Below the pieces are notes generated by a model. It was given only the letters and a program-made list of their open reading frames with translations. It had not been told where the DNA came from and made no database searches. DNA of 64,000 nt from the NCBI RefSeq assembly GCF_016587415.1, contig NZ_BNJI01000003.1, forward strand, positions 1,054,001 through 1,118,000. The letters are read 5' to 3'. Of the stretch, positions 2,834-58,968 are shown piece by piece. The position numbers were made by a program, and so were the translations under genes. Each line of letters begins with the position of its first letter. Position 1 is the first letter of the stretch. This DNA is from Ktedonobacter sp. SOSP1-85. GTDB lineage: Bacteria > Chloroflexota > Ktedonobacteria > Ktedonobacterales > Ktedonobacteraceae.

Positions 2834-2890
2834 GTGGTGTGTGGTAAGTCCATGGCGGCTGCAGGCTGCTATGGACTTACCACACACCAC
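2834..2890. repeat. Intergenic palindrome, 20-bp perfect stem
   Basis: Arms 2834-2853 and 2871-2890 are perfectly complementary (starting GTGGTGTGTGGTAAG), with a 17-base loop. It lies just after the aromatase gene and could end transcription, though only a short A/T run follows. Ten bases downstream, at 2901-2922, is a small hairpin (AGCGCC-GCA-GGCG) followed by GAGAAG; this module recurs next to other palindromes in the window. Confidence 0.8.
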
Positions 2891-3085
2891 TAAAAAAGCG
2901 AGCGCCGCAGGCGCGAGAAGTCAATAAAGCATACATGGCATCATCGAATGTTTTGCAGTAAGAGGTGAGTGGGAGGGAATGTGAAAACGTCTTAATTGCA
3001 GTATCCTCAGACGGATCGAAGGAAGAGTCCGAGAGCTCAGCATTCGCTTCCCGCATCCAACCTCTATCTGCGGGAGCAGCATAAC

Positions 3086-40039: not shown

Positions 40040-40106
40040 AGGTGCTATTCCTCTCTTTGCTTTTTTATTGATTATACGATACTTCTCAGCGCCTGTGGCG
40101 CTTCGC

Positions 40107-40164
40107 GAGTTGGTGGGGTATCGTGGCCGTCGCTGACGCGACGGCCACGATACCCCACCAACTC
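40107..40164. repeat. Intergenic palindrome, 27-bp perfect stem
   Basis: Arms 40107-40133 and 40138-40164 pair perfectly around the loop TGAC. On the minus strand the hairpin-GAGAAG module (AGCGCC-ACA-GGCGCT then GAGAAGT) lies at 40081-40102, four bases from the stem. The right arm end is also the first unit of a 33-base tandem repeat. Confidence 0.85.
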
Positions 40165-40247
40165 GGTTCACTTTGCTTGTAGATACCCCACCAGTTCGGT
40201 TCGCTTTGCTTGTAGATACCCCACCAATTCAGCTCGCCTTACTTGTA
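40149..40247. repeat. Three tandem 33-base repeats
   Basis: Units 40149-40181, 40182-40214 and 40215-40247 each start GATACCCCACCA and have an exact 33-base period with a few substitutions. The first unit overlaps the right arm of the palindrome at 40107-40164. No CRISPR-like spacers. Confidence 0.8.
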
Positions 40248-43611: not shown

Positions 43612-43674
43612 AGAAAGAGGTGTGTGCATGGGAAATCGGGCAATGCCCGATTTCCCATGCACACACCTCTTTCT
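43612..43674. repeat. Intergenic palindrome, 30-bp perfect stem
   Basis: Arms 43612-43641 and 43645-43674 pair without mismatch around a three-base loop. It follows the PKD protein gene. To its right, CACCGCAGGCACGAAAG (about 43682-43698) looks like a decayed copy of the hairpin-GAGAAG module. Confidence 0.85.
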
Positions 43675-43801
43675 CCCTACACACCGCAGGCACGAAAGTT
43701 CAGATACCCACGCTTGCTTTATCCGCTAGCACATACTAAAATAGATTTATACACCTCTTCTATGGTCTGCCTGCTCAGTTGCCACAAAAGGAGGCGCGGA
43801 T

Positions 43802-47708: not shown

Positions 47709-47783
47709 TATCTTTTCTCTTTCACTCCGGAGCTTTCCAGTTCTCTTCCAGTTCTTGCCTTGGCTCACTACGCTCGCCTCGGA

Positions 47784-47838
47784 GTAAGGGGGTGTGGGTG
47801 GAAAACGGCATTGCCGTTTTCCACCCACACCCCCTTAC
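47784..47838. repeat. Intergenic palindrome, 26-bp perfect stem
   Basis: Arms 47784-47809 and 47813-47838 pair perfectly, with an ATT loop. On the right, at 47844-47863, is the hairpin module AGCGCC-GCA-GGCG followed by TGAAGAG. It stands between the two divergent promoters of the LacI-controlled region. Confidence 0.85.
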
Positions 47839-47969
47839 CTCTGAGCGCCGCAGGCGTGAAGAGCTCCATATGCATGAGAATTGGAAAGCCCTGTCCTTCA
47901 CTCGGGCTTCTCAAAAGTTATCCATGTCCTGATGCTCAAAAAGAACTTTTGAGCATCCCTATCTTCTAC

Positions 47970-49116: not shown

Positions 49117-49140
49117 CTGCGCACCTGCGGTGCTCAGAGG

Positions 49141-49196
49141 GTATGTATGTGGCATGGAGGGCGTGCATTCGCACGCCCTCCATGCCACATACATAC
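49141..49196. repeat. Intergenic palindrome, 26-bp perfect stem
   Basis: Arms 49141-49166 and 49171-49196 pair perfectly around ATTC. On the left (minus orientation), at about 49117-49137, is the module AGCACC-GCA-GGTGC; on the right, GAGCCGAGAAG at 49204-49214 may be a truncated copy. It follows the LacI gene and may end its transcript. Confidence 0.85.
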
Positions 49197-55621: not shown

Positions 55622-55872
55622 AGAGTCCTACTTCCTTAAAGTATCAAAAATAACCTCTCTCCAAAACAATTATAATATGCTGACTTTAGTACCGCAATAT
55701 AGCTTAACCTCTTGACACATGTCCTAATTACGGTTTAGATTACAATAATTGCGTATTTCAGTTGCCTCTCATCCGCTATACACATATGTTTAAAAAAAGT
55801 CCTGAAGTAGAACGCAGAAAGTAGCTACTCAGATCCTCTCTCCAAGAGACACTCGCAGCGTCTCAGACGCTG

Positions 55873-55936
55873 CGTAGGGTTATGGGATGTGGAAAAAAAA
55901 CCGGAAGGTTTTTTTTCCACATCCCATAACCCTACG
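55873..55936. repeat. Intergenic palindrome, 30-bp perfect stem, with side hairpins
   Basis: Arms 55873-55902 and 55907-55936 pair without mismatch around GGAA. To the left, CGCAGCGTC/GACGCTGCG (55854-55874) forms another hairpin that shares a few bases with the arm. To the right, AGCCAC-GTA-GTGGC followed by GAGAAG (55937-55956) is the conserved module with a different but still paired stem. The remainder of the 55622-55996 gap shows no gene. Confidence 0.85.
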
Positions 55937-55996
55937 AGCCACGTAGTGGCGAGAAGTCCTGAGCAGTTGCCGCAGCAATTTTAAGCAGGTGCGCTT

Positions 55997-58889: not shown

Positions 58890-58968
58890 AGAAATAAATT
58901 ATAAACACAATTTATGGGGCAGCTGGAGAAGCTAGCCGCCCCATAAATTGTGTTTATAATTTATTTCT
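58890..58968. repeat. Intergenic palindrome, 31-bp perfect stem
   Basis: Arms 58890-58920 and 58938-58968 pair perfectly; the 17-base loop contains AGCT-N5-AGCT. It begins six bases after the GntR stop and probably ends that transcript. The A/T-rich arms differ in composition from the other palindromes, and no clear GAGAAG module is present. Confidence 0.85.

Follow-up and report, generated by a model that had tools for sequence, protein, structure and literature searches.

Palindromic repeats of Ktedonobacter as mobile DNA: a conserved side hairpin, and arms probably kept symmetrical by template switching

Why should a small constant hairpin stand beside long palindromes whose own sequence differs from copy to copy? 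The question arises from a stretch of 64,000 nucleotides from the genome of the soil bacterium Ktedonobacter sp. SOSP1-85 (contig C3, 1054001-1118000 of the source genome; hereafter the window), in which a first-pass annotation had described five such modules, each a hairpin and four of them followed by GAGAAG or GAAGAG, and had read module and palindrome together as a composite mobile or regulatory element undergoing compensatory change. Here, the module, the palindromes and their ends were compared within the genome and with related genomes.

The side module and its palindromes

The element at the finding and the other module-bearing elements of the window are as follows.

55825-55966, plus strand: whole element, subfamily F1c, found in each of the three Ktedonobacter genomes; order TIR, hairpin, palindrome, hairpin, TIR
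55825-55840, plus strand: F1c left TIR-like end, CTACTCAGATCCTCTC; the family end CTACTCAGGACTTCTC is repeated in the source genome, K. racemifer and K. robiniae
55856-55872, plus strand: F1c left side hairpin, CAGCGTC-TCA-GACGCTG
55873-55936, plus strand: F1c main palindrome, perfect, with arms of 30 bp and the 4-nt loop GGAA; K. robiniae and K. racemifer have a different loop and inner stem
55937-55950, plus strand: F1c right side hairpin, AGCCAC-GTA-GTGGC
55951-55966, plus strand: F1c right end, GAGAAGTCCTGAGCAG, a 12/16 inverted repeat of the left end
55951-55956, plus strand: GAGAAG, inner end of the F1c right TIR
47728-47893, plus strand: 166-bp MITE of subfamily F1b, sharing its TIR with a resident ISAs1-family element
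47718-47727, plus strand: left target duplication of the MITE, TCTTTCACTC
47894-47903, plus strand: right target duplication of the MITE, TCCTTCACTC, 9/10 match
47784-47838, plus strand: main palindrome within the MITE, with arms of 27 bp
47844-47863, plus strand: side hairpin of the MITE, AGCGCC-GCA-GGCG followed by TGAAGAG
2834-2890, plus strand: palindrome, 26-bp arms (92%), degraded in K. racemifer
2901-2920, plus strand: side module AGCGCCGCAGGCGCGAGAAG, subfamily F1
40106-40165, minus strand: palindrome, 28-bp arms
40081-40102, minus strand: side module AGCGCC-ACA-GGCGCT-GAGAAGT
43612-43674, plus strand: palindrome with 31-bp arms; both relatives differ from it by two paired changes
43680-43699, plus strand: degenerate side module CACACCGCAGGCACGAAAGT
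49141-49196, minus strand: palindrome with arms of 26 bp; compared with K. robiniae, three base pairs have changed on both arms and the loop is inverted (ATTC/GAAT)
49117-49137, minus strand: side hairpin AGCACC-GCA-GGTGC, without GAGAAG

All five modules of the first-pass annotation were recovered (2901-2920, 47844-47863 and 55937-55956, and on the minus strand 40081-40102 and 49117-49137); the side hairpin is common to all of them, whereas GAGAAG is absent at 49117-49137. It had overlooked a sixth, degenerate module at 43680-43699 (CACACCGCAGGCACG). Nine of the ten palindromes in the window lie outside ORFs of at least 100 aa, which cover 86% of it; at 40106-40165, the tenth coincides in part with a predicted ORF. 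Beside this tenth palindrome, at 40165-40245, the outer arm piece GATACCCCACCAACTCG forms an imperfect short array, so that arm sequence has seemingly been copied in tandem. The window also holds a palindrome with 35-bp arms and no side module (58890-58968); in K. racemifer, an extra, different palindrome (locus L185 4273-4326, C7:1085273-1085326) is inserted 30-40 bp upstream of its counterpart.

The module has the consensus AGCGCC-GCA-GGCGC-GAGAAG, and a search of the whole 11.0-Mb, three-contig genome with the pattern AGCGCCGCAGGCGNGAGAAG, allowing up to 3 mismatches, returned 106 + 92 = 198 matches as compared to 4 + 5 = 9 for the reversed pattern used as control; the original observation thus holds, and for a family larger than the window alone could show. 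Ninety module matches were taken from the genome, and a long palindrome lay directly upstream in 86 of them, which speaks against random placement of the module relative to palindromes. In nearly all copies examined, these palindromes are perfect, variable in sequence and have arms of 23-38 bp. Palindromes with arms of at least 18 bp numbered 40 in 184 kb and none in a shuffled control; chance does not account for the observation. A typical F1 copy reads TGCAAGTTATTTC, CTGGGTAGTGGTGTGGTGCGTGCTGGCAGCC, a 3-nt loop, the reverse complement, GCG, AGCGCC-GCA-GGCGC and GAGAAGTCA; GGTAG/CTACC, to be compared with the conserved GTAG-type foot of REPINs, is common at the foot of the palindrome and is not conserved. 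Pairwise identity among copies is ~75-86% over ~100 bp, and the repeats are short, gene-free and encode no protein.

The side hairpin consists of a 5-bp stem and a triloop of the GCA, GTA or ACA type, and GNA-type triloops make stable small DNA hairpins. Between subfamilies the stem differs while pairing stays complete (GCGCC, GCACC, GCCAC, CCACC and GCGTC, each with its exact complement), and a hairpin with a stem of at least 5 is present at 33 of 220 palindrome sides as compared to 44 of 660 nearby control stretches (p = 3e-4). Within the main subfamily, F1, no covariation signal was detected in the side stem, which is uninformative because the copies were selected by that very sequence and the stem hardly varies. 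The module diverges by 1.7% and its flanks by 4.2% (p = 0.01), a difference no more than suggestive of constraint or selection on the module, since the loci were chosen partly for module similarity.

Subfamilies, ends and mobility

The F1b copies are non-coding MITEs of 166-186 bp. The ends of the copy at 47728-47893 are of the type CAGGGCTTTCCAATTCTC/GAGAATTGGAAAGCCCTG, in common with two 1.33-kb ISAs1-family elements: pairs of GGGCTTTCCAATTCTC lying 1.33 kb apart enclose 409-aa ISAs1-family transposases (NF033564, E ~1e-59), and these two elements are bordered by the 10-bp TSDs ATAAGGCAAT and CCTTTATAGA. The window MITE has the 10-bp TSD TCYTTCACTC, and another locus (L231) shows a perfect 10-bp TSD with CTTATGGAAG on both sides. 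An empty site for the window MITE is found in K. racemifer, where the flanks can be aligned and the insert is missing; in K. robiniae, a wider stretch is absent at this position. The shared TIR, the TSD and the empty site support the assignment of the F1b window copy as an ISAs1-type MITE, and its ends suggest that F1b may be mobilised in trans by the ISAs1 transposase. In size, lack of coding sequence, shared TIR and TSD length, F1b resembles known ISAs1-derived MITEs; the interior differs, consisting here of a long perfect palindrome and side hairpins that evolve symmetrically. Loci L321/L323 (C2 1255768-1261073) contain a third member of the ISAs1 family, which has another TIR (CAGGGCTGTTGCAAAGT) and seems to be split by ~4 kb of other DNA.

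In F1c, to which the element at 55825-55966 belongs, side hairpins stand on both sides of the palindrome and the TIR CTACTCAGGACTTCTC has the partner ACTGAGTAGTTACA, GAGAAG being the inner end of the TIR on the other strand. One F1c insertion in K. robiniae is bordered by a 9-bp duplication (CAATATCTT) and is absent from the source genome; no duplication is visible at the ends of the window copy. Matches to the F1c TIR in three genomes included no convergent pair 1-3 kb apart that could mark an autonomous partner. F1, the most numerous subfamily, carries the side hairpin and not the ISAs1 TIR, its ends are weakly conserved, and a scan of all offsets in 83 copies revealed no consistent TSD or direct repeat. 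F1 is thus MITE-like, short of a full MITE assignment by TIR and TSD, and, since many orthologous F1 copies are common to different species, it may be largely immobile at present.

Taken together, these results mark the elements as mobile DNA, with miniature transposons making up at least part of the copies. The earlier idea of a composite mobile element made of a constant flank and a variable palindrome therefore stands for F1b, with its TIR, TSD and empty site, and for F1c, with its TIRs and one species-specific insertion, but not in full for F1, which lacks a TSD. That the constant flank is the recognised part is plausible, because the ends are TIRs in both F1b and F1c and GAGAAG coincides with the inner TIR end of F1c. 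Elements also decay: an element that is intact in K. racemifer is 42 bp shorter in the source genome and K. robiniae, consistent with deletion between direct repeats of GCCGCAGGC, which occurs in both the palindrome tip and the side hairpin, so that the tip of the side hairpin would have acted as deletion partner for the palindrome.

Paired changes in the arms and their possible causes

The palindromes change while remaining palindromes. In 23 F1 ortholog pairs between the source genome and K. robiniae, comprising 695 base pairs, 32 double changes preserved Watson-Crick pairing, 16 changes were single and no double change broke pairing, whereas 2.3 double changes were expected under independence (Poisson P ~2e-25); when the partner position was shifted by 1-4, the doubles dropped to 1-8. 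For all palindromes of the syntenic blocks (184-234 kb per genome, three genomes, 45 orthologous comparisons, 1,168 scorable pairs), the corresponding figures were 63 pairing-preserving doubles, one non-preserving double and 59 single changes, with 7.5 doubles expected. The loops turned over as well: among 24 F1 loops, 11 were exact reverse complements of their ortholog, 6 were unchanged and 7 were different in another way, and the blocks yielded 8 exact inversions versus 15 unchanged loops. In the collected copies, 17 of 2,585 pairs were mismatched (99.3% Watson-Crick), with G-T accounting for 8 and A-C for 6. A covariance model, proposed earlier as a check, found 30 of 31 stem pairs to covary, with E-values down to 1e-30, nearly all of this signal residing in the long palindrome and none of it being informative for the F1 side stem.

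The compensatory change described in the first-pass annotation is thus real as far as paired changes are concerned, but the evidence favours copying from arm to arm at the level of DNA over selection on a folded RNA. Double changes in F1 accumulate at 4.6%, the flanks diverge at 4.2% (Fisher p = 0.67), and such equality is expected if a new mutation is as likely to be reverted as to be carried over to the partner arm, both arms ending in the same state; were pairing under selection and the intermediate harmful, the double rate would be expected to stay below the flank rate. Template switching is known to homogenise arms and invert the spacer in yeast (PMC8604942), and in rRNA genes to leave compensatory changes together with an inverted loop (PMC8794818). 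The palindromes described here display the same marks, namely arm homogenisation with paired changes and inversion of the loop, and this match favours arm-to-arm template switching over RNA selection and points to paired changes that would act on DNA rather than on a selected RNA. Coding palindromes of Nematomorpha are reported to share arm homogenisation, compensatory changes and loop inversion (PMC6649704). In contrast to these template-switch systems, the present case concerns many loci of one bacterial repeat family that change at the flanking substitution rate, and loop orientation is apparently randomised at ~4% divergence.

We therefore regard the elements, with a probability of about 0.78, as non-autonomous MITEs and their decayed relatives, whose palindromes are kept symmetrical by arm-to-arm template switching. 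The full layout would be TIR, side hairpin, long palindrome, side hairpin and TIR. A transposase acting in trans, ISAs1 in the case of F1b, would recognise the ends, with GAGAAG as their inner part, and after insertion the palindrome would fold as a DNA hairpin or cruciform, at which the replicating polymerase might jump from one arm to the other as template. A point mutation in one arm would then be either erased or copied across, often with inversion of the loop, and as a result the sequence would drift at an approximately neutral rate with near-perfect symmetry. It is a long shot that the palindrome is more than a passive target and that this copying belongs to the replication cycle of the element itself, through a single-stranded intermediate that is primed by a hairpin and initiated at the side hairpin; if true, such fold-back replication would set these elements apart as mobile DNA of a new class, able to restore its symmetry unaided.

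The symmetry might also be due to homologous recombination or gene conversion between the arms, or to cruciform resolution, in place of replication template switching. Inverted arms that recombine should turn the loop around, the same paired changes would be explained and the footprint would be similar, and the present data do not tell the two processes apart. The arms are only 23-38 bp long, near the lower limit for RecA-type recombination, and this route is considered rather unlikely.

A function of the DNA hairpin or cruciform itself in protein binding, nucleoid organisation or transcription termination could in principle preserve pairing, in agreement with the position of nine of the ten window palindromes outside the ORFs and with the GNA-type triloops of the side hairpins. 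Yet the intergenic placement is equally predicted by the survival of insertions, the arms diverge as fast as the flanks, the copies take no set direction relative to gene ends, and from one species to another entire copies have gone missing or decayed; selection of this kind is accordingly given little probability.

As intergenic, palindromic repeats present in hundreds of copies, in a genome with 42 Y1_Tnp matches and with F1 lacking an obvious TSD, the elements invite comparison with REP/REPIN sequences mobilised by a RAYT (Y1 transposase), a link to IS200-like or RAYT transposases having been proposed for them earlier. The search did not bear this out: no module, and hence no linked single-copy RAYT, was found within ~1.5 kb of the 30 Y1 loci fetched from the 42 matches. 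The inspected Y1 loci were IS605-like with TnpB, and many other Y1 genes were near-identical 143-aa copies and not single-copy RAYTs. Moreover, two related subfamilies have TIRs and TSDs (the F1c duplication being known from one K. robiniae copy), and IS200/IS605-type transposition is not known to make either. On present evidence, the elements are not RAYT-linked REPs, and mobilisation of this type is quite improbable. They share with REP, BIME and REPIN sequences (PMC3116915) the high copy number, the intergenic position and the capacity to form hairpins, but REPs are conserved in sequence, whereas the palindromes here are free to vary.

Similarly improbable is a transcribed structured RNA or cis-regulatory leader in which selection retains pairing via compensatory mutations. 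The strong covariation would fit such an RNA, and many copies lie immediately upstream of start codons; yet gene orientation, counted over 70 loci, is close to random (++ 20, -- 14, convergent 13, divergent 8), which argues against a leader and likewise against the regulatory role suggested earlier. The pairs are Watson-Crick almost throughout and G-U is not preferred over A-C, and neither the exact loop inversions nor double changes at the flanking rate are in line with selection on RNA. At gathering and relaxed thresholds, Rfam returned for the elements generic or spurious miRNA-hairpin matches alone and, otherwise, rRNA and a near-threshold T-box located elsewhere. Since a strong covariance model arose despite the evidence against RNA selection, covariation is not by itself proof of a structured RNA and would have been misleading here.

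Finally, long palindromes are difficult to sequence, but mis-assembly with falsely perfect arms and flipped loops is very unlikely, as palindromes of ~65 bp are spanned by ordinary reads, the pattern recurs in a second genus and in several genomes that were assembled separately, and two rRNA-operon copies within one assembly differ by a loop T/A.

Distribution and related repeats

Where it can be aligned, the window is ~94-97% identical to K. racemifer SOSP1-21 and K. robiniae SOSP1-30, and ~75% to Ktedonospora formicarum SOSP1-1. The covariance model, built from 22 copies, gave at least 150 matches in each of three Ktedonobacter genomes, 44-147 in four of five genomes of one other genus of the Ktedonobacteraceae (the fifth had 1), 6 in a further genus and 10 in Ktedonospora, K. 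formicarum being nearly devoid of the family; five other genera gave no matches. The distribution is therefore patchy, and the copies seen outside Ktedonobacter carry the same side hairpin. Double-hairpin elements of organelle genomes are likewise small mobile hairpin elements, whereas those of Ktedonobacter are bacterial, bounded by TIRs and probably have far longer perfect arms.

MITEs, ISAs1 elements and template switching are known kinds. In the literature searched, no report of such repeats in Ktedonobacteria was found, nor of the combination of high-copy bacterial repeats, drift at the flank rate, preserved symmetry and randomised loops; the K. racemifer genome paper lists 601 transposase genes as well as numerous identical fragments, and mentions no such element. 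The hundreds of replicate loci offer a natural experiment for measuring template-switch mutation in bacteria. By a rough estimate, a mismatch between the arms seems to be removed ~300 times faster than new ones form, and ~4% divergence is already enough for the loop orientations to be mixed.

Several further repeats were observed beside the family. At least two palindrome families without the module occur in the syntenic blocks of the source genome, K. robiniae and K. racemifer, namely CGACGCTACTAAAGTACGCGTCTACATATCATGG with 38-bp arms and AGTAGCCGCGTACGCAAGTAGCGG (for example at 76991, 126566 and 159882, and at 94047 and 105544, of the source-genome block), the latter also with an inverted loop. 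At locus L028 (C1 near 1226294), the left arm is missing and the module is preceded by an array of the ~23-bp repeat ACTCATTAACTCTTTGGACATTC. The same palindrome lies downstream of the 23S gene in two rRNA operon copies (L066 and L077, C1 near 595668 and 3139635), where the single-base loops differ (T against A) and the two sequences become unrelated within the side module or just after it. A probable T-box leader was found at L004 2436-2792 (E 6e-18), scoring slightly under the Rfam gathering threshold.
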